Of a DNA stretch of 42,847 bases, positions 4,788 to 39,407 are shown piece after piece (position 1 is the stretch's first letter; each line of letters opens with the position of its first letter). Under the pieces are notes generated by a model. The model was given only the letters and a program-made list of their open reading frames with translations, made no database searches and had not been told where the DNA came from. Both the position numbers and the translations under genes were made by a program. The stretch comes from a virus. The stretch is from positions 1 through 42,847 of IMG/VR virus record IMGVR_UViG_3300037357_000053. One strand, 5' to 3'.

Positions 4788-5885
4788 ATGGAAATACAAC
4801 CGTGGAAAGAGATTTGCGATCTGATACCCCCACTGTCAGCAGCCGAGCGCAAGCGACTGTTGGCGAGTCTGTTGAAGCAGCACGTGGATATTCCCGTAAT
4901 CACAATGGCGGATGGGCGCATAATCGACGGCCACCACCGATGGGAGCTCGCGCCCGACAAATGCAGGATTGAGATTCTCGATATAGGTGAGGCCGAAGCC
5001 TTTGATCTGGCCGTCCAACTAAACATTGCTCGCCGAAACCTCAGCCCTGAGCAGCTACAACCGCTGATAGGATTCCTGCGCGGTCAAGGCAAAACCCAAG
5101 CCGCAGTAGCCGAAGCGGTGGGGGTGAGTCAAAAAACCGTTTCAAACGTTGAGAATACAAGTGATAGTAAAAATACTAATGCTTGTATAGATCAGCGTGT
5201 GTCGGTTCCGAAACAAGCATACTCAGCCATAGCCGAGCGGGTTCGATCAGGCGAGCCACAAGCGCAAATTGCCGCCGATCACCATATAACTCAACAGAGA
5301 GTGAGTCAAATCGCCACTCTGGTAGAATCCCGCGCGAACGTGCCGGACCCCGTGACCGGCGAAGTGCCGATGCCAGATCAGAAGTTCCGCTGCATAGTCA
5401 TCGACCCGCCCTGGCCGATGCAGAAAATCGAACGCGAGAAATATCCCAACCAATCCCAAACACTCGACTACCCGGTTATGAGTCTGGATGAAATAAGCAG
5501 CCTACCTATTGGCGAATTGGCTGACCCTGCCGGGTGTCACCTCTATCTGTGGGTCACTCAAAAGTTCTTGCCTTCGGGTTTCTGTCTGTTTGACAATTGG
5601 GGCGTCAAATACCAGTGTCTGCTGACCTGGGTTAAGCCGTCTGGATTCACGCCATTCTCCTGGATGTACAACACTGAGCATGTGCTGTTTGGCCGGATTG
5701 GAAGCCTACCGCTAGACAAGCTCGGCCTGAAATTATCGTTTGATGCCCCGGTAACAAGACACAGCGCAAAGCCGGATGTATTCTACGACCGTGTGATTCA
5801 AGCAAGCCCCGGCCCGCGACTCGAAATGTTCAGCCGCCAAAGACGAGACGGGTTTACGTGCTGGGGAAACGAGGTGCAGGAATGA
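4788..5885 (+). CDS. ParB-like/HTH/MT-A70 adenine-N6 DNA methyltransferase fusion
   Basis: 365 residues, GGGGAGGG SD. Residues 35-85 are a ParB/Srx-like domain (DGRIIDGHHRW, 42-52). Residues 97-120 form an HTH (GKTQAAVAEAVGVSQKTVSNV), and a second HTH-like part lies near 150-175. Residues 198-360 are an MT-A70 family methyltransferase with the catalytic D206-P-P-W motif (IVIDPPWP) and LYLWVTQKFLP and HRW-free SAM-fold strands. It should methylate adenine N6 in DNA, probably to protect phage DNA or mark promoters. It heads the rightward early operon, with the structured leader upstream and an ATGA overlap to the next gene. ParB plus MTase fusions are known from phages. Confidence 0.88.
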   Translation: MEIQPWKEICDLIPPLSAAERKRLLASLLKQHVDIPVITMADGRIIDGHHRWELAPDKCRIEILDIGEAEAFDLAVQLNIARRNLSPEQLQPLIGFLRGQGKTQAAVAEAVGVSQKTVSNVENTSDSKNTNACIDQRVSVPKQAYSAIAERVRSGEPQAQIAADHHITQQRVSQIATLVESRANVPDPVTGEVPMPDQKFRCIVIDPPWPMQKIEREKYPNQSQTLDYPVMSLDEISSLPIGELADPAGCHLYLWVTQKFLPSGFCLFDNWGVKYQCLLTWVKPSGFTPFSWMYNTEHVLFGRIGSLPLDKLGLKLSFDAPVTRHSAKPDVFYDRVIQASPGPRLEMFSRQRRDGFTCWGNEVQE

Positions 5886-11403: not shown

Positions 11404-11472
11404 GTCGAGTAGCCCGGCGTTTCTCCTTCCTTTCGTGCTTGGGGCGCTGTTTTACTCGACGCCCCACTTTTT
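11404..11472 (+). terminator. Terminator-like hairpin with competing stem
   Basis: GGGGCG (11441-11446) and CGCCCC (11460-11465) form a hairpin followed by ACTTTTT, resembling an intrinsic terminator. An alternative 8-bp pair, GTCGAGTA (11404-11411) with TACTCGAC (11453-11460), shares base 11460 and straddles the first hairpin, so the two folds compete. The next SD starts 2 nt after the U run. Confidence 0.5.
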
Positions 11473-11486
11473 CAAGAGGTGATGAT

Positions 11487-11675
11487 ATGCCGTTAAAACC
11501 AGGCAAGAGCAAACGCGTTGTGAGTTCCAACATCTCGGAGTTCCACAAGGGCAAGACGTTCGCGCACACGGCGGCGAAGTTCGGCAAAGCGAAGGCAAAC
11601 GCCCAGGCAATAGCCGTGGCACTTGAGACTGCACGGAAGTCCAGGAAGAAAGCGAAATTGGCGGTTCTGCAATGA
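11487..11675 (+). CDS. Small basic protein, DUF6496-like
   Basis: 62 residues from the ATG at 11487 (GAGGTGA SD); the longer frame from 11439 would translate through the terminator-like hairpin. MPLKPGKSKRVVSSNISEF ... AKANAQAIAVALETARKSRKK resembles a widespread small phage family whose members read as K-x-G-K-S-x-K-x-I-S-x-N-I ... Q-A-x-A-I-A-L-x-x-A-x-K. Role unknown; often found near head genes. The next gene overlaps its stop (ATGA). Confidence 0.65.
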   Translation: MPLKPGKSKRVVSSNISEFHKGKTFAHTAAKFGKAKANAQAIAVALETARKSRKKAKLAVLQ

Positions 11676-30123: not shown

Positions 30124-31479
30124 ATGCCAACATCTCCAATGGATGCAATAGCCGAAGTCGTTCTCGGTCAACAGGCGACTCGGCAGAAACAGCAAGAGTC
30201 GATGAAAGACACCTTGCTCCCGCAGCAACAGATGGCGAGTCAGCAGCAGTTTGAAATGCAGCGTCAGCAGTATTCGGAAGCCCAGGCGAACGCGCGTCAG
30301 CAGGCGTTGTTGGCGCACGAAGATAAGACTGCTCAAGAGCGAGCCGACGAAGCTATTCTTAAAGAGAACTTCGATGTTTACTGGGGCCTTGTTCCAGGTG
30401 GTCTAGGCCCAGAAGGAAGACACGAAGTTGGACGCGCTGGAATACGGTGGAACAGTCCCACTTTTATGGGAGACCTTGGTGATTATGAGAGGAAGATCGG
30501 TGTAGCTGTTAGGACGCCGAAATACAGGGAGCAGGCGGCGGTTCCAGGACAAGACGCCATTCCTGCCAGTGGCGGTATTCAGCCGGGCGCTCCTGGCCTT
30601 GACCCGACTCAGCCGATGGGCGGCATTGTGCCCACGCAACCGATGGGGCCGGAGATTCCCGGCAAGCCCGCCGTAGCGGCGCAACCTGCCCAACAAGTCC
30701 CTGACGGCTTTACTGAGACTCCGGGGCGGCACTTGGAGACGCATGAAGAATACGAGAATGCCGAAAAGGAGAAAATCGCAGGGGTAGCACAGGCAGAAAA
30801 AAAGAAGACAGATAACCGAATGCTCTACCAAAGTGATATTACGCGATTGACGCCCATGGTAAAAGAGTCTGTTGAGCGTGGAGAAGCGGATACTCTTGCC
30901 GGCACTCAGTTGCGTCATCAATTGTATCACGCGACAAAGATGTTGGAGATGTTGGGTAATCCCGCAAGTGGGCCAGGCGGCCCTACTGAATCCGATGTCG
31001 ATATGTCTCAAATGCCTAAAGGTTGGCCTTACACTTCTTCCGAGACTACCAAGCAGAAAGACATGGAAGCTGATACTCAGCGTCGTCTAAAACAAGCCGA
31101 CTCTCGAATAGCCCAAGCGAATACTCGTGAAAAACGAATAGCTGCCAAAAATCCGGCAATGAAGCCAAATGCGTTTATGACCAGTTTTGGCACGTCGCTT
31201 CCTTCGCTCGATGAAGACGTTAAATTAGCACGGACCGAGGTTAACACAGCCGCCAAGAATTTCGGCGCTGGACTGCCACAAGCTAAACAGCATCTTGAGT
31301 CGGCAGTATCCAGAAAGGAGCAGGGTCTTGACGAATACGCAAAGGCGGCGGGCGGCGGCAAGCAGGGCGGCGGCAAGCGAAGTATTGCCGGTTTGACTAC
31401 TGAACTGAAAGCGGCTGGCAAATCACAGGCTTACATCAAGGCGGCGGTCAAAAACGCAAGAGCGGCAGGGTTACAATAG
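30124..31479 (+). CDS. Internal virion coiled-coil protein
   Basis: 451 residues, TAGGAG SD. Residues 15-90 are Gln-rich helices (QQATRQKQQESMKDTLLPQQQMASQQQFEMQRQQYSEAQ region). The middle is Pro/Gly-rich (about 145-195, with GQDAIPASGGIQPGAPGLD), and the C-terminal third has charged coiled coils (ADTQRRLKQADSRIAQANTREKRIAAK) and a Gly/Lys end. The next gene starts at GTG overlapping the stop. It resembles the medium ejection protein (P22 gp20 / T7 gp15 position), by order and composition only. Confidence 0.5.
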   Translation: MPTSPMDAIAEVVLGQQATRQKQQESMKDTLLPQQQMASQQQFEMQRQQYSEAQANARQQALLAHEDKTAQERADEAILKENFDVYWGLVPGGLGPEGRHEVGRAGIRWNSPTFMGDLGDYERKIGVAVRTPKYREQAAVPGQDAIPASGGIQPGAPGLDPTQPMGGIVPTQPMGPEIPGKPAVAAQPAQQVPDGFTETPGRHLETHEEYENAEKEKIAGVAQAEKKKTDNRMLYQSDITRLTPMVKESVERGEADTLAGTQLRHQLYHATKMLEMLGNPASGPGGPTESDVDMSQMPKGWPYTSSETTKQKDMEADTQRRLKQADSRIAQANTREKRIAAKNPAMKPNAFMTSFGTSLPSLDEDVKLARTEVNTAAKNFGAGLPQAKQHLESAVSRKEQGLDEYAKAAGGGKQGGGKRSIAGLTTELKAAGKSQAYIKAAVKNARAAGLQ

Positions 31480-34217
31480 TGGGCGATTACGACGACATCA
31501 TAGCTCAGACCGACAAGCAGTTGGGCAAACAAGCGGGCACTGGCAAGCCTGGCAACTATGACGCGCAGATTGACGCTCTGGCCGACAAGCATGGCATAGA
31601 TCGCGGAATGGCTCACAGGTGGATTCAGGCTGAGAGTGGGGGCAATCCTCGTGCGGTTTCCAAGGCAGGCGCGAAGGGTCTGACTCAACTCCTTGACAGT
31701 ACCGCACAGTCGGTGGGCGTCAAAGACAGCTTCGACCCTCAGCAGAACCTCGAAGGCGGATTCAAGTATCTCAAGAGCAAACTTGATGAGTTCGGCGGCG
31801 ATCCGGCGAAGGCGTTCGCGGCGTACAATGCGGGCGACACGAGAGTTAGATCAGGGCGTCCTCTACCCCAAGAGACTCAAAACTACGTGAGTAAGATCGT
31901 GGGCAGTAGCAAGACAACGGGCAAATCGGATTATGCCGACATTATCGCAATGACGGACAATCAGATGACCCAACCCACCGCCCGCTTCCGCACTCAGCGA
32001 ATCATAGACTACATGAACAATAGCTTTGACCATGGGTTAGGGCCTGCTCAGATGAAGATCATTCACCCCGACTTCGCGCGAGGGGCCATTGACAACGCAC
32101 ACGCCGATTGGCTGAAACAGAAACAGGCGAAGCATCAAGCAGTCCGAGACTCGCCTTTCCAGCAAGCTGTCGCTATGCTCAAGGCGTCTGCCGAAAACAC
32201 GCCATATACCGATCCCAGCACTGGGGCGATTGACTATGCGCGAAAAGCGGCTGACGTGAGAGCTAAACAACCACAGCAAACATTTATCGGCCCGGCAGAA
32301 GGTTCGCCGGGTAACTATTACAGTCCCAAGCCGATGGGCGTTTTTACTGCCGCACGTGGGAAAGATATACTCCAAAAATCAGCGCAAGTCGTCCCAGGTG
32401 CAGCATCTGAAGCACTGAGAGGTATTGCCGACCCCATTATTGATTTTATTGGTAAAGCCGCAACTGATACCGGCCAAGTAGGGACTATGGCTGGAGACAC
32501 CCGCGAAGCGGTAGACAACTTCGTTGGTAGTGTGGGCGCGCTCAGCTCCTACTTTATCCCTGTGCTCGGACAAGCTGCGGGTGCAGTTAGCTTGGTTTCA
32601 ATGGCCGCCTCTCCCATGGATGCAATTTATGGCTTGCTCGAACCGTGGAAAGACCCAGTTCAGACAGTGCGCGAGGGCAAAGGGTTGGACTTGCTGACAC
32701 TGCCGATTATACTTCATGGCGCATTGCACGGGGCAGGTGGCGGCGAAGCCGGGAGTGCTGATCCGACTGCCTCACTTCATGAGGTTGTTGACAATATTGC
32801 GGATAACCACGCATTCACTCCCGAAGAACAGGCGCAACTCCACACGACTCTTGACGATGCGATCAACGCTGAAGCCACTCAGCAGCCGCAGGAAGCCCCT
32901 GTCGCCGCCGAGCCGACTCCTGAGCCGTCCGCGCCAGCAACCGCGCATGTGACTCGCGAGTCAATATCGGCGAAATTGGACACAGCCGATGAATGGGGCG
33001 TAACTCTTGGGCACACCCCAGAAGGATATTTACTTGATGCTTCTCCGGCTCGCGGAGGAGGGTGGGTTGTGTCGGTAAGCAAGAACACAAGATCAGACGG
33101 ATCAGGGTCGTATGCAGTAATCCCAGGGACAGAATCCCACTTGCCCACAAAGGAAGCCGTAATAGACTATGTGCTCGACCTTAGTAGCAAGCCGTCCGCG
33201 CCAGCGGACGCGCCAGAATCGCAAGCGGGGGCAGAATACGAGGGCAGTGTCAAGCCAACTGCGACCAATACGAAGCCGAATGACGTCCAATTAGCAGTCG
33301 CTCGACACAAGGGGCAACCTGTCTTAGACTTGCACGAGAATCCTACTGGTTGGGTGATGATAAAAGGTGAAGGTAACGGGCCAAACAGCAACTTGGTTCA
33401 ACTCGTTCACCCGACAGAGGATATAGTCCATACGTTCGCCAGCGACTTACCTAAAGGACACGGCTACGCAGGCATACAAGCTGCTCAAAAAGCGCAATCA
33501 TTTGCCATTGACAACCCTATCGAAAAGGTTCCTGTTCCTACATCCGGCGAACTAGTAGTCAAGCCTATTTACACCTCCTCCTCTCCGCAAACGGGGGGCG
33601 GGGCGAAAGGATTATCAAATGAAACAAAGACTACTATTCCTGTATCTTCAGATATATTGGAAAATCGACCTGTGGAGAATGGACCGGGCGATGAAAAAAA
33701 TTATGAAGATGAACTTGCCAAACAGCCTGGAGAATCCGTCGCTGAATGGTGGCAACGATTCTCCAGAATTAGGGCGCAGATACCCGAAGCGTCCCGCGTA
33801 AACTACGTGCAGCCATTTGAGGTAAAGCGTGGAGAGTGGACTCATGAACACGCAATGACATACGGGCCAATGTCTGGCAAAGACATTCTAGCGGCTGGTG
33901 ACAAATACGGCAGAGACGCGGGGCACTACGTTGCGGTTAAGACTGCACAAGATGCCGGAATACCCGTGTCCACCGACGTGCTTAAATCGTTTGGTATAGA
34001 CGCGGGCGGGTCTCCTGCGCCCGCTGCCGAGCCGCCGAAGCTCGAACTCACGGGGAGAAGAACGGCGAAACAGGTTGAGAGTATTGTCGCTGATGCCGAT
34101 GGCGATACAGTGCAAGAGAAGTTTAAGAACCACTACAAGGAGAATGCACTTCACGATTTCAAGGAATCTATGAACGAATACTTTGATCGGATAAGGTGCG
34201 GAGGGCTTGTAGAATGA
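31479..34217 (+). CDS. Internal virion protein with lytic transglycosylase (SLT) domain
   Basis: 912 residues, GTG start overlapping the previous TAG. Residues 28-140 are an SLT domain: AHRWIQAESGGNPRAVSK with catalytic E52, GAKGLTQLL, then LEGGFKYLKSKLDEFGGDPAKAFAAYNAGD. It would cut peptidoglycan during genome ejection. Later parts: a hydrophobic span about 335-390 (SVGALSSYFIPVLGQAAGAVSLVSMAA) and Pro/Ala/Ser-rich linkers. Two conserved-looking alpha/beta segments lie around 500-560 and 590-680. The size and SLT position recall T7 gp16-like ejection proteins. Confidence 0.82.
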   Translation: MGDYDDIIAQTDKQLGKQAGTGKPGNYDAQIDALADKHGIDRGMAHRWIQAESGGNPRAVSKAGAKGLTQLLDSTAQSVGVKDSFDPQQNLEGGFKYLKSKLDEFGGDPAKAFAAYNAGDTRVRSGRPLPQETQNYVSKIVGSSKTTGKSDYADIIAMTDNQMTQPTARFRTQRIIDYMNNSFDHGLGPAQMKIIHPDFARGAIDNAHADWLKQKQAKHQAVRDSPFQQAVAMLKASAENTPYTDPSTGAIDYARKAADVRAKQPQQTFIGPAEGSPGNYYSPKPMGVFTAARGKDILQKSAQVVPGAASEALRGIADPIIDFIGKAATDTGQVGTMAGDTREAVDNFVGSVGALSSYFIPVLGQAAGAVSLVSMAASPMDAIYGLLEPWKDPVQTVREGKGLDLLTLPIILHGALHGAGGGEAGSADPTASLHEVVDNIADNHAFTPEEQAQLHTTLDDAINAEATQQPQEAPVAAEPTPEPSAPATAHVTRESISAKLDTADEWGVTLGHTPEGYLLDASPARGGGWVVSVSKNTRSDGSGSYAVIPGTESHLPTKEAVIDYVLDLSSKPSAPADAPESQAGAEYEGSVKPTATNTKPNDVQLAVARHKGQPVLDLHENPTGWVMIKGEGNGPNSNLVQLVHPTEDIVHTFASDLPKGHGYAGIQAAQKAQSFAIDNPIEKVPVPTSGELVVKPIYTSSSPQTGGGAKGLSNETKTTIPVSSDILENRPVENGPGDEKNYEDELAKQPGESVAEWWQRFSRIRAQIPEASRVNYVQPFEVKRGEWTHEHAMTYGPMSGKDILAAGDKYGRDAGHYVAVKTAQDAGIPVSTDVLKSFGIDAGGSPAPAAEPPKLELTGRRTAKQVESIVADADGDTVQEKFKNHYKENALHDFKESMNEYFDRIRCGGLVE

Positions 34218-35473
34218 AACTCTCCGAAGTGACAGCATGCATAACAGATCAAGGGATATTCGCTGACTTGGCATGCACTCTTGCCCGCGATTATGGCAAG
34301 GTTTATTATTCGCCTGAATGCAAATCGGCTTTTCAGAGAATCAATCAAGGGTGGATAGGCAAAGGACTACCAGGTGTTACTCTTACTAGATCGCCGTTTG
34401 CGGTAAGGCACGAGGCTAATTTGTTCATCTTCCCAGACATCAACTATGGCGATGAACAAGAAACTCTTGTCGAGATGGGCAAGCGCGTGTGGGGATCACG
34501 CACCGGCGAAGAACTGGAGCTTGACCGCGTTTTCGCAAAAGAGAAGATGGCCGATCTCGGTCTGCCTGTTGGCGAATACGAGGTTGTAAAGGGTGTGGAC
34601 GCTGCCCGTGAGTTCCTGAAAGTTCATCAGAACTGGCACGTGAAAATATCGCGGTGGCGCGGTCATCGGGAAAGCTGGAAGTCGAAGAGCTTCGCATTCT
34701 CACGGTGGATACTTGCCGACCTCGAATACCAGTGGGGGCCATTCGCGGATAAGTTTCCGATTATCCTTGAAAAGAACCTGCCGAGTAGAATTGAACTTGC
34801 CATTGACACCTACTTCGCTGGTGGCTTGTTTCCTGATAAGGCTCTCGTGGGCTTTGAAGTAAAGGATATGGGTTACGTCTGCAAGGTAGAGAACTACGCG
34901 GACATTGATGAGTCCATTACCCGATGTGACCAAGCCCTGATACCGTATCTCACAGAAGTGGGTTACTGCGGCAACTGGGCTTGTGAGGTGAGAATCGGAG
35001 AAGATAGAGTGCCACACCCTATTGACCCTTGTACTCGAATAGGCTCACCACCTGGCGAGTATTTTCAAGAGGCACATACCAATCTTGCAGAAATTATGTG
35101 GGAGGGCGCTGGCGGAAAGATGGTTCAGCCGAAGTTTGTAGCGAAGTGGGGTTGCGAGATTATGCTTCATTGCTCGTGGTCCGACAAGCACTGGCAAAGC
35201 CTTATCTTCCCGGAAGAATATCGGAAGTTCATAAAACTGCGCAACTGTGTGAAGGTGGACGGCGAATACCATATCATTCCGCAAGATCAGGGCGTAACTG
35301 AGGTCGGCGCTGTCATCGGCTGGGGCGCAAATATGGAAGAAGCATTCTCACGGGCACGGGAGGTTGCGGATTCCATAGAAGGTTATACTTTGGAGATACC
35401 CGAAGACTCTCTTGGCAAAGCAGAGGAATATATCAAACAAGCTCATTCGTTCGGGCTAAAGGTGCTCAGTTAA
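34214..35473 (+). CDS. ATP-grasp ligase-like protein (PurD-like fold)
   Basis: 419 residues from the ATG at 34214 (GGAGGG SD, ATGA overlap). N-terminal pre-ATP-grasp domain, about 1-95 (LFIFPDINYGDEQETLVEMGKRVWGSRTG). The ATP-grasp core has DRVFAKEKMADLGLPVGEY (about 105-125), WHVKISRWRGHRE with a candidate ATP lysine, IILEKNLPSRIELAIDTYF, and WACEVRIGEDRVPHPIDPCTRIGSPPG as the likely metal-binding end. The C-terminal IGWGANMEEAFSRAREVADSIEG resembles the PurD C-domain. The family joins carboxylates to amines or thiols via acyl-phosphate. The substrate is unknown. It abuts the AdoMet decarboxylase-like gene. Confidence 0.72.
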   Translation: MKLSEVTACITDQGIFADLACTLARDYGKVYYSPECKSAFQRINQGWIGKGLPGVTLTRSPFAVRHEANLFIFPDINYGDEQETLVEMGKRVWGSRTGEELELDRVFAKEKMADLGLPVGEYEVVKGVDAAREFLKVHQNWHVKISRWRGHRESWKSKSFAFSRWILADLEYQWGPFADKFPIILEKNLPSRIELAIDTYFAGGLFPDKALVGFEVKDMGYVCKVENYADIDESITRCDQALIPYLTEVGYCGNWACEVRIGEDRVPHPIDPCTRIGSPPGEYFQEAHTNLAEIMWEGAGGKMVQPKFVAKWGCEIMLHCSWSDKHWQSLIFPEEYRKFIKLRNCVKVDGEYHIIPQDQGVTEVGAVIGWGANMEEAFSRAREVADSIEGYTLEIPEDSLGKAEEYIKQAHSFGLKVLS

Positions 35474-35874
35474 TGGACAAGCCAGTTTTCGGCTATCAGC
35501 TACTTTTGGATTGTTACGAGTGCAAGCCTGGCGTGTGCGATGACCTCCATTACTGCTATAATTTCCTTGATGAGATTGTCGGATTCCTGGGCATGACGAA
35601 GCAGACGCCGCCGTCGATATTCGTCTCGCCGCTGGAGTTCCCCGACAAGGCGGGCTTGTCGGGATGGGTTCCGCTCATCGAGAGTCACGTTGCGATTCAC
35701 ACACTGAGCCCGAAGAACTATATCAGCATAGATATTTACTCATGCAAGCAGTACAACTCGGCGTTGACTGAGCAGTGGGTTAAGAACTACTTCGGGGCCA
35801 AGCTGATGGACTCGCAATTCATCAAGCGCGGACTCGACTATTTCTCGATACAGACGGAGGCTCCCAGTGCTTAA
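35473..35874 (+). CDS. AdoMet decarboxylase-fold pyruvoyl enzyme (SpeD-like)
   Basis: 133 residues, start overlapping the ATP-grasp stop (TAATG). The N-terminal YQLLLDCYECKPGVCDD matches the LLLDLYGC type opening of class 1b SpeD. The signature LIESHVAIHT gives the self-cleavage site E70-S71, with S71 becoming the pyruvoyl group. H76 (S+5), C91 in DIYSCK (S+20) and S63 (S-8) match the Thermotoga maritima catalytic set S63, H68, C83, S55 in spacing. Length is near the usual 120-135. It should decarboxylate AdoMet, or ornithine/arginine as reported for some phage SpeD homologues. All residues needed are present. Confidence 0.85.
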   Translation: MDKPVFGYQLLLDCYECKPGVCDDLHYCYNFLDEIVGFLGMTKQTPPSIFVSPLEFPDKAGLSGWVPLIESHVAIHTLSPKNYISIDIYSCKQYNSALTEQWVKNYFGAKLMDSQFIKRGLDYFSIQTEAPSA

Positions 35875-36241
35875 ATCCATATTGGTCGTCGTGCAGAAGA
35901 TGAAAGATTTTCGCTACAGCACCGTGGGAGACTGGCTTAATCCCACGACAGACCAGCGGATGGTGCTTGTGGCCGATCTTCCAGACGACCGTATGCGCTT
36001 CGCGCTTGCCTTGCACGAGCAAGTCGAACAAGCGCTGTGCATTCAGCACGGCGTTTCGCAGGTGGAAGTTGACCGCTGGGATTTGGCGTTCACTGGCGAT
36101 GGCGAACCCGGTGATGACCCGGCGTGCCCCTACTTCAACGAGCACGCGGCGGCGACCCAGATAGAATGGCTCTACTGTGAGCTTTCGGGTCTTGACTGGA
36201 ACGACTACGAGAAAGCGTTGGAAGAGGCTTACAATGGCTAA
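35867..36241 (+). CDS. Hypothetical protein in the SpeD/ATP-grasp cassette
   Basis: 124 residues, GTG start with GGAGG SD 6 nt upstream, overlapping the SpeD-like stop by 8 nt. Residues 40-60 contain RFALALHEQVEQALCIQHG, an HExxE-like helix. FTGDGEPGDDPACPYFNEHAAATQIEWLYCELSGLDWNDYEKAL follows, with conserved-looking His, Asp and Glu that could bind metal. Similar proteins with H-E-x-V-E ... G-D-D-P-A-x-P-Y ... H occur in phages without known role. The cassette position suggests a link to the two enzymes upstream, but it may simply be a phage helper. Confidence 0.6.
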   Translation: MLKSILVVVQKMKDFRYSTVGDWLNPTTDQRMVLVADLPDDRMRFALALHEQVEQALCIQHGVSQVEVDRWDLAFTGDGEPGDDPACPYFNEHAAATQIEWLYCELSGLDWNDYEKALEEAYNG

Positions 36242-39200
36242 AGGTCTGCCCTGTCCGCAAACAGTCGAAGGATGGAAAGAGCTTGTGGCCGGCCTCGGCG
36301 GTGAGGCGCGCGCGTCACTGGCATACTTCCGCAACAAAGGGATGCCGGACCTCGCCACCGCCAAAACGATTCTAGGCGGCTTCGAGGGCGTGGGGGGGGA
36401 GAAGAGCAACGCGCCAGCCGCGCCTACCGCGAACGCGCCAGAACCGCAAGCGGGAGCGGGGGAGCCACGACGCACACCTGCCGCGACCCCTGAACCCTCT
36501 GCGAAACCCCCCAGGTCCGGTTTCTTCGCTGACGCGCCTGACGATGTTCTCGCAGACCTTGATTACCTCAAGAAGATAGCGAAGTCCAACAAGGGCGCTG
36601 TCGGTCCCGGCGCTGGCGACTTCGACCCAGTGCGCACAGCCAAGGCTGTCCAGAATGTCGGCAAGCATATACTGAACGAGGGCGTGAAGACAGCGGAAGA
36701 GTGGAAAGACGCCGTTGTGAAAGCAGTCGGCGAGCACGTGAGGCCATACCTCGATGAAGCCTGGGCCGCGCTGAACCCCGAAGCGAAGACGGGGGGAGAA
36801 GGTGGGCACACAACTTCCATTATGAACCGGGTCGTAAAACCCGAAGCGGAAGAATATGGACTTGACCCCGTAGAACGTGAAGCTAAGAAAACGCGAACGA
36901 TAGCCCACGCGCAGGCCCAAACTTTACTTGAGGCAGACCCCGCTCATGGGCGCGATCTTGTCGCTAGTCTGATTGCAAAGAAGCGGCAGGTAACAGATGT
37001 AGAAGCCAATGTGATTGGTCTTGACCGGATGCGTATCCAAAACGAAATTAGAGCAGCACAAACCAAGGGTGAGGACACTGGACCGCTTATCAAGCAATTG
37101 CAGGACAACCAGCAGGCACGAGCTATCGGCGCACAAAACAACGCGGCTGGCCTCAAGGCGTTTGACGAGTTCATCAAAGAGGACTATTCTCTCGGCACTG
37201 GTCTTATGAACCTCCATGCCAAACTCGGTCGTGAACCGAACGCGGAGGAATCAGCAAGGGTTCAAGACCTCTCGGACAAACTTGCAGCGCAAGACAAGAA
37301 AATTGCTGAACTCGAAGCACAGGCAAAGAAACCAGCGAAAGTAACTGAGAAACCGACTGCGGCTACTCGATTCGTCCGTAACAAGGTCTTCACTCAAAGC
37401 AAGGTAGACGCGGCACGGGCGTACTTCTCGCAGACATCTCCAGGCGGTAGACTCACTGCGGGTATTGACCCTGAAGCTCTGATGCACGCTACCAACCTGG
37501 GCGGGGCTTATATCGAGGCTGGCGTCCGCTCATTCGCTGATTGGTCCGAGAATATGCTTAAGGAGTGTGGCGAAGCGATCCGACCCCACCTTGACGCGAT
37601 TTATCAGAAAGTCTCGAATGACAAGCGCGTCGCCACTGCCATTAAGACAACTACCACGCAGGCCGGTAAGTATGCGAACGCGACCGGAAAAGGCGAACCG
37701 CTTCCTAAACCGCCGCCGATTATTCCCAACAAGGAACTGATGGATGCCCGGTTTTTACGCGACGCCTACCGTGAGGAATATAACGCATTTACGAAGCCCC
37801 AGCCACCGCCTACTGCCTGGGATGCGGCGCGTGATATGTTCCGCGCTACCATATTGTCTGGTCCCGGTGTTATAGAGAAGATAGGAATGGCGACTGTCAC
37901 CAACCCCATATCCGAAGCACTCACTAAGCCAGCCGAGTTTGTTGCCGGAAGGGTTCGCGTCGGCGGTCAGCGAATGATGGACATATCTACAAGCAAAGGC
38001 AATCCCCGCGTCAGTGACGTTGTGACAAACGTTAGAGCGATGATAAGTCACGCGACATGGCACGACCTTGTGAATATGTGGCATACCGGATCGACAGACA
38101 TTACCCGTGCAGCTAATCTGAAACCTCGAAATATAGACGTGGGCGGCAGCGCAACCGTGCAAGGTGTCACCGGCAGGATATTGAATACCATCTTGAAAGT
38201 CCACGGATTAATGAAAACCCCGGTCGAGCGTGCTACTTTCGAGGAATCTCTTCGCGCTCGGACACGAAACGCGATAGGTCGGGGGCTTGACGTGCGCGAC
38301 CCTGTTGTTCAGTTAGACATAACAACAGGCGCGGCTTATGACGCCATCGGGCAGGCGTTCCTAGGTGAAAACGTGGTTGCTGATTTAATAAACGAAGCGA
38401 AAGCCAGCGCAACGCGGAAGTCGCCTGCGTTGGGATTCTTGGTTCATACTATTGCGCCGATTGCAAAGGTGTCTACCAACTTCGTAGGCAGGTCAATCGA
38501 GAACGCAGGGTTAGGATTGCCGGAAGCCGCTGTCAGGTATGGCAAGATGTGGAACGACGCTCGGACCGGTAAGGAGATAACAGACGTGCAGGCCACGAAG
38601 TTCATTAACGCAGTCAGACAGGGTAGCCTGGGCGTCCCGGTTGCCCTGGTTGGCATGGGCCTCGTCAAAGGCGTAGTGGTTGCAGGCTATGGGCAGCATC
38701 GTCCGAAAGGACAAAACGGCCAGATGTTGCCGCCTGGCAGTATCGAGATAAATGGACATCTTCTGACTCACAAGTTACTTCACTCACCGCCGATTGAGGC
38801 TATAAGCACTTGGGCAACATTTCATAACGAACTATCTGCGGGAAAACATGCTCCGATAGCAGCAGGGAAAGCCGTAGGCCATTTGGTCAAGGAAGGTCCG
38901 GCACTTTACACAATATCGGATATGACGCAGGCACTTACTACTGGTGACTTCGGGGGAATGGCGGGGGCTTATGTGCGAGGATTCATTCCGCAGGCCATTC
39001 AGCAAGTGGCGGCTGGAACGGATGTGGACAAGCAGAACCCTACAGTCAAGGATTATGCAAAGGGTATGTTTGACGCAGAAGATACAGTGCAGCGGAAGCC
39101 AAAAGGATTCACGGAACAAGTCAAAATGGGCATACCCGGCAAATACGGGCGCGGAAGCGTGCCGATGGACCCTGCCCCGATCAAAGCCGCTTTCGCGGCC

Positions 39201-39407
39201 CGCGCCAAGTCGGCGAAGCCCGAGCAGCTCGACGCACTCGCGCAATGGGGCTTTAACAATGGGCTGTTCGCCACGATGAAAGGCGCGGCGGAAGCCATAA
39301 AAGATATAAGGATGCCCGAGCGGGTCAAGGCTGCGGCGAAGGCTCGCAAGGACGCGCTGAAAGCGGATGTCGCCAAGAGGCGTGCTGCCGCAGGTATAGG
39401 TAACTAA
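36234..39407 (+). CDS. Very large internal virion / ejection-type protein
   Basis: 1057 residues from the ATG at 36234 (AGAGG SD, overlapping the previous stop). Residues 1-110 are Ala/Pro/Glu-rich. Two related helical units, about 115-185 (AKAVQNVGKHILNEGVKTAEEW) and 415-475 (ATNLGGAYIEAGVRSFADW), share the G-x-x-x-x-E-G-V-x-x-x-x-x-W pattern seen in phage polyvalent/internal proteins. Charged helices and coiled coils follow, with hydrophobic segments near 815-835 (GVPVALVGMGLVKGVVVAGYG). No catalytic motif was found. By size and place it would be the largest ejection protein, stored in the capsid and delivered into the cell. Confidence 0.6.
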   Translation: MAKGLPCPQTVEGWKELVAGLGGEARASLAYFRNKGMPDLATAKTILGGFEGVGGEKSNAPAAPTANAPEPQAGAGEPRRTPAATPEPSAKPPRSGFFADAPDDVLADLDYLKKIAKSNKGAVGPGAGDFDPVRTAKAVQNVGKHILNEGVKTAEEWKDAVVKAVGEHVRPYLDEAWAALNPEAKTGGEGGHTTSIMNRVVKPEAEEYGLDPVEREAKKTRTIAHAQAQTLLEADPAHGRDLVASLIAKKRQVTDVEANVIGLDRMRIQNEIRAAQTKGEDTGPLIKQLQDNQQARAIGAQNNAAGLKAFDEFIKEDYSLGTGLMNLHAKLGREPNAEESARVQDLSDKLAAQDKKIAELEAQAKKPAKVTEKPTAATRFVRNKVFTQSKVDAARAYFSQTSPGGRLTAGIDPEALMHATNLGGAYIEAGVRSFADWSENMLKECGEAIRPHLDAIYQKVSNDKRVATAIKTTTTQAGKYANATGKGEPLPKPPPIIPNKELMDARFLRDAYREEYNAFTKPQPPPTAWDAARDMFRATILSGPGVIEKIGMATVTNPISEALTKPAEFVAGRVRVGGQRMMDISTSKGNPRVSDVVTNVRAMISHATWHDLVNMWHTGSTDITRAANLKPRNIDVGGSATVQGVTGRILNTILKVHGLMKTPVERATFEESLRARTRNAIGRGLDVRDPVVQLDITTGAAYDAIGQAFLGENVVADLINEAKASATRKSPALGFLVHTIAPIAKVSTNFVGRSIENAGLGLPEAAVRYGKMWNDARTGKEITDVQATKFINAVRQGSLGVPVALVGMGLVKGVVVAGYGQHRPKGQNGQMLPPGSIEINGHLLTHKLLHSPPIEAISTWATFHNELSAGKHAPIAAGKAVGHLVKEGPALYTISDMTQALTTGDFGGMAGAYVRGFIPQAIQQVAAGTDVDKQNPTVKDYAKGMFDAEDTVQRKPKGFTEQVKMGIPGKYGRGSVPMDPAPIKAAFAARAKSAKPEQLDALAQWGFNNGLFATMKGAAEAIKDIRMPERVKAAAKARKDALKADVAKRRAAAGIGN

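Follow-up and report, generated by a model that had tools for sequence, protein, structure and literature searches.

A decarboxylase and a ligase in one phage cassette

The window analysed here, the whole of the 42,847-base virus record IMGVR_UViG_3300037357_000053, comes from a virus of bacteria and carries a gene for an ATP-grasp ligase with the fold of GAR synthetase (PurD), followed by an overlapping gene for a SpeD-like pyruvoyl decarboxylase. We consider it about an even chance (roughly 0.5) that the two proteins form a two-enzyme phage module, in which the decarboxylase makes an amine and the ligase links this amine as an amide to a carboxylate. Since the pairing of this ligase family with a decarboxylase recurs in dozens of other phages, the two-step chemistry is probably real. 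The cassette at positions 34214–36241 consists of three overlapping genes on the same strand; these are real genes, beyond chance, and the coordinates, frames and residues given for them in a first-pass annotation of the sequence proved correct:

34214..35473, plus strand: predicted PurD-fold ATP-grasp amine/carboxylate ligase, 419 aa (AlphaFold model, Foldseek, invariant residues)
35473..35874, plus strand: SpeD-like, putatively pyruvoyl-dependent amino-acid decarboxylase, 133 aa (Pfam, alignment; self-cleavage before S71 predicted)
35867..36241, plus strand: small HxxxE...D...EPGD...PY...H...E protein, 124 aa, with a putative metal site (recurrent family)

The ligase and SpeD genes overlap by 1 nt (TAATG), and the SpeD gene and the third gene by 8 nt.

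A phage-restricted ligase family with the PurD fold

The ligase protein had no match in Pfam or PHROG, including the phage amidoligase families described so far, and a sequence search of the PDB yielded no relative. Its AlphaFold model (predicted local distance difference score, pLDDT, 95.2; predicted template-modelling score, pTM, 0.93) aligned over its full length with GAR synthetase PurD (Foldseek E 3e-22, TM-score 0.76, 15% identity). Among relatives at 26–45% identity, 24 residues are invariant, including D12, K144, R149-G150, E186, E258 and D271-P272, and further R275, G277, P279-P280 and E282; by analogy, K144, E258, D271 and R275 would be the expected ATP-grasp active-site residues, and all four are invariant. 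The AlphaFold2 model, the Foldseek match and the invariant Mg/ATP residues place the protein among the ATP-grasp enzymes, as the first-pass annotation had proposed from recognisable core motifs. PurD is the closest fold, which would suit a phage GAR synthetase boosting purines next to a SpeD boosting polyamines, as independent metabolic genes; the PurD equivalog model TIGR00877 scored 16.2 bits (E 0.0036) against a cut-off of 288, and together with the low identity and a pairing that this proposal leaves unexplained, this makes it the most improbable of the alternatives considered.

Single-protein searches of viral contigs (P0001, P0002) gave no matches, one-sequence pattern seeds being too strict, and a motif search was used instead; the degenerate motif DPxxRxGSPPxE was found in 68 IMG/VR stretches, 64 of them encoding ligase relatives, and profile-guided scans of IMG/VR recovered 264 and 276 relatives. 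A search of 84,980 bacterial and archaeal genomes gave three ligase loci in all, one of them on a Bradyrhizobium contig that is also in IMG/VR. By tblastn, three different ligase queries matched none of 50,697 phage records; none of 49 family members matched a PHROG, and Pfam gave two stray weak matches among the 49. Predicted viral structures matched with a TM-score of 0.48 at most. Because convincing Pfam or PHROG matches, tblastn matches and close viral structures are lacking and the family is nearly absent from cellular genomes, we regard it as an undescribed, phage-restricted ligase family, new to the databases searched.

The SpeD-like protein as a divergent class 1b homologue

The SpeD-like protein is a class 1b SpeD homologue; it matched the Pfam family AdoMet_dc (PF02675) with E 1.2e-17 and 64.6 bits, above the cut-off of 25, and thus belongs to the superfamily of S-adenosylmethionine (AdoMet) decarboxylases. 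Its residues S63, E70, S71, H76 and C91, singled out earlier for their spacing, are in register with the solved AdoMet decarboxylase structures of T. maritima and Aquifex. The protein scored 54.5 against the AdoMet decarboxylase equivalog TIGR03330 (NCBIfam), below the cut-off of 75.65, and the AdoMet-binding motif HTWPE is replaced by HTLSP, with loss of the conserved proline. A divergent group of archaeal SpeDs (L245, L251, L253, L264) carries HTYPE or DTYPE in place of HTWPE.

Recurrence and re-assembly of the pair

Pairing was counted over 114 ligase loci, non-redundant at 95% identity, in which some loci that lack a partner are cut by a contig end. In 56 loci, a SpeD homologue precedes the ligase on the same strand by no more than 1.6 kb; in 39 of these, the two genes overlap or are at most 7 nt apart. 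The idea of a shared pathway had been made conditional on related phages in which the two genes are neighbours, and these 56 loci provide them. In 36 records without SpeD beside the ligase, SpeD was not found elsewhere in the record either (0/36); the same SpeD model recovered SpeD in 15 of 15 positive control records. In many loci with the SpeD variant termed D-type below, the cassette lies between the genes for the terminase large subunit and the portal; in the window it stands among genes for probable internal virion proteins, and in the clade of the window ligase many of the ligase genes come after one for a very large protein.

Three decarboxylase types adjoin the ligase: the window-type SpeD, a D-type SpeD, and pyruvoyl arginine decarboxylase (PvlArgDC). 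The window type has seven cassette members, six of which retain His76. In the D-type (for example in L138, L110 and L010; 49 members in the tree), Ser71 and Cys91 are conserved in 49 of 49, and His76 is replaced by Asp in 48 of 49. A reciprocal search, starting from SpeD, found the D-type exclusively beside the ligase (21/21 newly fetched loci). Finally, one phage sequence, recovered in two contigs (L136/L146/L147), has no SpeD; its PvlArgDC (PF01862, E 4.9e-45) runs into the ligase with a 4-nt ATGA overlap, and a further PvlArgDC scan returned the same two contigs only. PvlArgDC and SpeD do not share a homologous fold (PMC9992855); that either can stand beside members of one ligase family suggests that the ligase depends on the product of a pyruvoyl decarboxylase.

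The ligase tree calls for about 14 partner changes. The window ligase clusters with ligases that lack SpeD and often have the third gene (support 99/97 in the careful tree), whereas its SpeD type otherwise adjoins a distant ligase clade in the opposite order, SpeD then ligase; the order in the window, ligase then SpeD, is the reverse of all other SpeD–ligase pairs found. In an approximately unbiased (AU) test on a 38-row tree, a single clade of all ligases with window-type SpeD was rejected (delta lnL 95, p-AU 6.9e-5). The SpeD-less clade of the window ligase, the reversed order and the AU rejection together argue that the pair was formed more than once, and that a window-type SpeD was recruited next to the ligase. 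Given the recurrence and re-assembly of the pair, we reject the view of SpeD as an accidental passenger.

These observations bear on the proposal that SpeD is an ordinary auxiliary metabolic gene, whose product would be a genuine AdoMet decarboxylase supplying spermidine synthesis in the host, with the ATP-grasp gene as an unrelated neighbour. In its favour are the Pfam assignment to AdoMet_dc and the existence of phage SpeDs with proven AdoMet decarboxylase activity (PMC9992855); the tight pairing over 56 loci, the re-assembly, PvlArgDC in the place of SpeD, the missed equivalog cut-off and the lost HTWPE motif speak against it, as does the lack of a partner enzyme. Spermidine synthase (SpeE, Spermine_synth) and agmatinase were both absent from the window and 14 related records, while the Spermine_synth controls were positive. 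SpeE could be supplied by the host. On balance, this role for SpeD appears rather unlikely.

The first-pass annotation had left two routes open, the making and ligation of an amine, which might yield a polyamine conjugate, a modified virion protein or a DNA-base precursor, or a drain on AdoMet that would blunt restriction. The former, as one decarboxylase/ATP-grasp pathway, finds strong support in the recurrence and the re-assembly, and the PurD fold is compatible with it. The latter is weakened: HTLSP stands where AdoMet would be bound, TIGR03330 is not reached, and PvlArgDC stands in for SpeD. Depletion of AdoMet by the decarboxylase, blunting host restriction or methylation, would moreover leave the ligase partner unexplained, and the gene lies in a late block of virion genes and not among early genes; a link to AdoMet is conceivable in 45 other phage loci, in which a gene resembling a DNA methyltransferase adjoins a window-type SpeD. 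For the window, it is a very improbable function.

Substrate of the decarboxylase

According to Li et al., SpeD without SpeE is anomalous, and such proteins were found to be arginine or ornithine decarboxylases (PMC10407285). The same authors give four marks for the ornithine-type SpeDC (PMC10407285); these Gln/Thr/Phe/Tyr marks, at positions inferred from SpeDC-like archaeal sequences, are missing from the window SpeD, which was placed outside the SpeDC-like archaeal clade and thus did not group with the SpeDC ornithine decarboxylases. The nearest outside relatives of the window type were a giant phage protein and speH_1 of Microcystis phage MaAM05 (support 96/83); both the giant phage (L265, LR756501) and the Microcystis phage (L266) carry divergent SpeDs. 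In MaAM05, speH_1 adjoins a canonical AdoMet decarboxylase, speE and the agmatinase gene speB, a context that has been read as that of an arginine decarboxylase (PMC10407285). With two SpeDs, speE and speB in a row, MaAM05 appears to possess a full route from arginine to spermidine. The window SpeD could be an arginine decarboxylase of the SpeDA kind: its proline is lost, and its sister speH_1 lies beside an agmatinase. Because of the speH_1 context and the PvlArgDC swap, conversion of arginine to agmatine is favoured; judged from sequence, L-arginine to agmatine would be the likeliest reaction of the window SpeD, and ornithine to putrescine the next.

It is unlikely that the ligated amine is ornithine-derived putrescine made by a SpeDC-type enzyme. 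Phage SpeD homologues with ornithine decarboxylase activity do exist (PMC9992855), and the D-type SpeDs share Gln and Tyr positions with the SpeDC-like archaeal sequences; yet the window SpeD has neither the SpeDC marks, at their archaeal-inferred positions, nor a place in that clade, and the enzyme that replaces SpeD beside the ligase is an arginine decarboxylase.

Proposed mechanism

Decarboxylation by pyruvoyl enzymes proceeds via a Schiff base to the free alpha-amine, and ATP-grasp enzymes phosphorylate a carboxylate that is then attacked by an amine. In the module proposed here, the SpeD-like protein would self-cleave before Ser71 to generate its pyruvoyl cofactor and would then decarboxylate a small amino acid to an amine, probably agmatine; the PurD-fold ligase would phosphorylate a carboxylate and join the amine to it as an amide. 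Expression would proceed from a late operon beside probable virion proteins, and the product could be a small conjugate of the amine, or else a protein or another acid that has been modified; as acceptor, a virion or injected protein is suggested by gene position only. In loci without a decarboxylase, the ligase would draw on host amines. Computation shows the two folds, the intact catalytic residues, the operon structure, the recurrent and repeatedly re-formed pairing, the interchange with PvlArgDC and the absence of SpeE and agmatinase from the records searched, whereas the substrate, the direction of flow, the amide product, its acceptor and the benefit to the phage are what we infer. The order amino acid, amine, amide provides the simplest model, because it combines established pyruvoyl and ATP-grasp chemistry with a precedent for clustering in the biosynthesis of E-64, where a dedicated decarboxylase and amide-forming enzymes, encoded in one cluster, attach agmatine or putrescine to an acid (PMC12568646).

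The order of the two steps could also be reversed: an acid would first be coupled by the ligase to the side chain of an amino acid, after which decarboxylation of the conjugate by the pyruvoyl enzyme would leave an amine-bearing tag. Pyruvoyl enzymes require a free alpha-amine only, and phosphatidylserine decarboxylase is a precedent; the characterised PvlArgDC and SpeD members, on the other hand, use free small amino acids or AdoMet, and the reversed order seems improbable. A more specific form of the decarboxylase-first module can be put forward tentatively, as possible though doubtful in its entirety: the phage-only PurD-fold ligases would join agmatine or a similar amine into an amide new to phages. 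This might be, for instance, a virion or ejected protein tagged with agmatine, or a cationic conjugate that is packaged, and the decarboxylase would have been recruited on separate occasions from as many as three sources.

As a caveat, several observations weigh against a dedicated decarboxylase–ligase module. About half of the ligase loci have neither SpeD nor PvlArgDC, and the ligase should therefore be able to use another amine source. In the reciprocal search, window-type SpeD occurred with the ligase in 4 of 80 loci and without it in the other 76, and the ligase was absent from 20 whole records carrying window-type SpeD; since it is found without the ligase in other phages, this SpeD must have a use of its own elsewhere. 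The D-type SpeDs lack the His that is held essential for processing. The PvlArgDC swap rests on the single phage sequence described above. A joint clade of window-type and D-type SpeD was not rejected (p-AU 0.295), so that their separate origins are not proven. The SpeD of phage phiN3, a proven AdoMet decarboxylase (PMC9992855), also lacks the proline, whose loss is no absolute marker; the replaced HTWPE motif of the window SpeD may be compatible with AdoMet decarboxylase activity.

Ligase-free phages with relatives of the window-type SpeD (L277–L352) have, besides the site-specific DNA-methyltransferase-like neighbour seen in 45 loci, a DNA-polymerase-like gene nearby.

Comparison with known systems

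Phage SpeD homologues that decarboxylate AdoMet, ornithine or arginine (PMC9992855; SpeDA and SpeDC, PMC10407285) share the class 1b fold with the window protein, including the pyruvoyl Ser and the Glu, His and Cys, and they likewise occur in phages without SpeE. No ATP-grasp partner has been described for them (PMC9992855, PMC10407285); the window type differs by the absence of the AdoMet motif and the SpeDC marks, and the D-type by Asp in place of the processing His, which raises the question of how such a pyruvoyl enzyme matures. PurD and related ATP-grasp enzymes have the full-length fold in common with the window ligase, together with acidic and basic active-site residues; the ligase is set apart by its low identity, a score far under the equivalog cut-off, its own motif DPxxRxGSPPxE and its restriction to phages. 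PvlArgDC, which substitutes for SpeD next to the L136/L147 ligases of this family, has a non-homologous fold and does not occur in the window.

Clusters of phage amidoligases, ATP-grasp enzymes and glutamine amidotransferases in LUZ24-like phages (PMC3890496) and OM43 phages (PMC10580990) also encode amide-forming enzymes whose target is not known, but their ligases belong to other families with no common Pfam or PHROG, have other partners and lie in early or replication blocks, and no pyruvoyl decarboxylase has been described in them. The E-64 pathway (PMC12568646) and the peptide–spermidine ligases YgiC/YjfC (cited there) likewise rely on ATP-dependent amide formation to couple an acid with an amine (agmatine or putrescine) that stems from a decarboxylase; these systems are fungal or bacterial, with a pyridoxal phosphate-dependent decarboxylase and other ATP-grasp families, and in E-64 biosynthesis an amide bond synthetase attaches the amine, while the ATP-grasp enzyme attaches the amino acid (PMC12568646). 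In the literature that was searched, no paper joins a SpeD-type decarboxylase and an ATP-grasp ligase. Phage amidoligase clusters and neofunctionalised SpeDs are each known separately; the ligase family itself is new to the databases searched.

The cassette points to a widespread phage chemistry that is missing from family databases and from sequenced phage isolates, and to a family of enzymes that are probably amide ligases and for which an amine donor can be predicted. From the repeated pairing follows a testable substrate prediction, with arginine converted to agmatine and agmatine built into an amide; the location of the cassette between genes for virion proteins suggests as possible targets a component of the virion or a molecule injected early.

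The third gene and the flanking genes

The third gene, considered earlier as a possible part of the pathway, may belong to it, since its family recurs near the ligase in 30 of the 114 loci; neither a fold match nor a function was found. The family retains H50, E54, D72, P88-Y89, H93 and E100. The protein model (pLDDT 96.8) gave nothing significant in a fold search against the PDB (best E 0.33); zinc-peptidase entries among the top, non-significant matches are suggestive only. Two third-gene proteins had no tblastn match in the 50,697 phage records. In one clade, members directly downstream of the ligase (L119:8401-9084, L131:8402-9085, L104:4890-5585) carry in addition an Erv1/Alr-like sulfhydryl oxidase domain (PF04777; for L119, E 4e-8).

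The cassette is flanked by two large genes:

31479..34217, plus strand: SLT transglycosylase-domain protein, probably an internal virion protein (Pfam/PHROG searches; upstream flank of the cassette)
36234..39407, plus strand: large flanking protein with a partial DarB-like PHROG match (start taken as ATG 36234; downstream flank of the cassette)

The stop of the SLT gene overlaps the ligase start by 4 nt (ATGA), and the third gene overlaps the large downstream gene by 8 nt if the latter starts at ATG 36234; its longest open reading frame spans 36177–39407, from GTG 36177. The 1,076-aa protein encoded by this longest frame matches in part the DarB-like antirestriction proteins of phrog_10089 (E 4.6e-19). 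For both flanking proteins, "ejection protein" is a reasonable, if putative, label.

PADLOC found no defence-system match, and a search for a terminal repeat in the window record found none. An open reading frame at 4788–5885 of the window matches ParB-like and also DNA methyltransferase PHROGs. Small basic proteins beside the cassette in other phages (cluster 1) are presumably DUF6496-like; their C-termini vary, and we do not claim them as the protein substrate of the ligase. The window encodes a small basic protein at 11439–11675 (MPLKPGKSKRVVSSNISEFHKGKT...) that resembles the DUF6496-type proteins directly beside the ligase in other phages. In one further locus (L066:5519-6379), a PAPS-reductase-domain protein (PF01507) is encoded directly downstream of the ligase.

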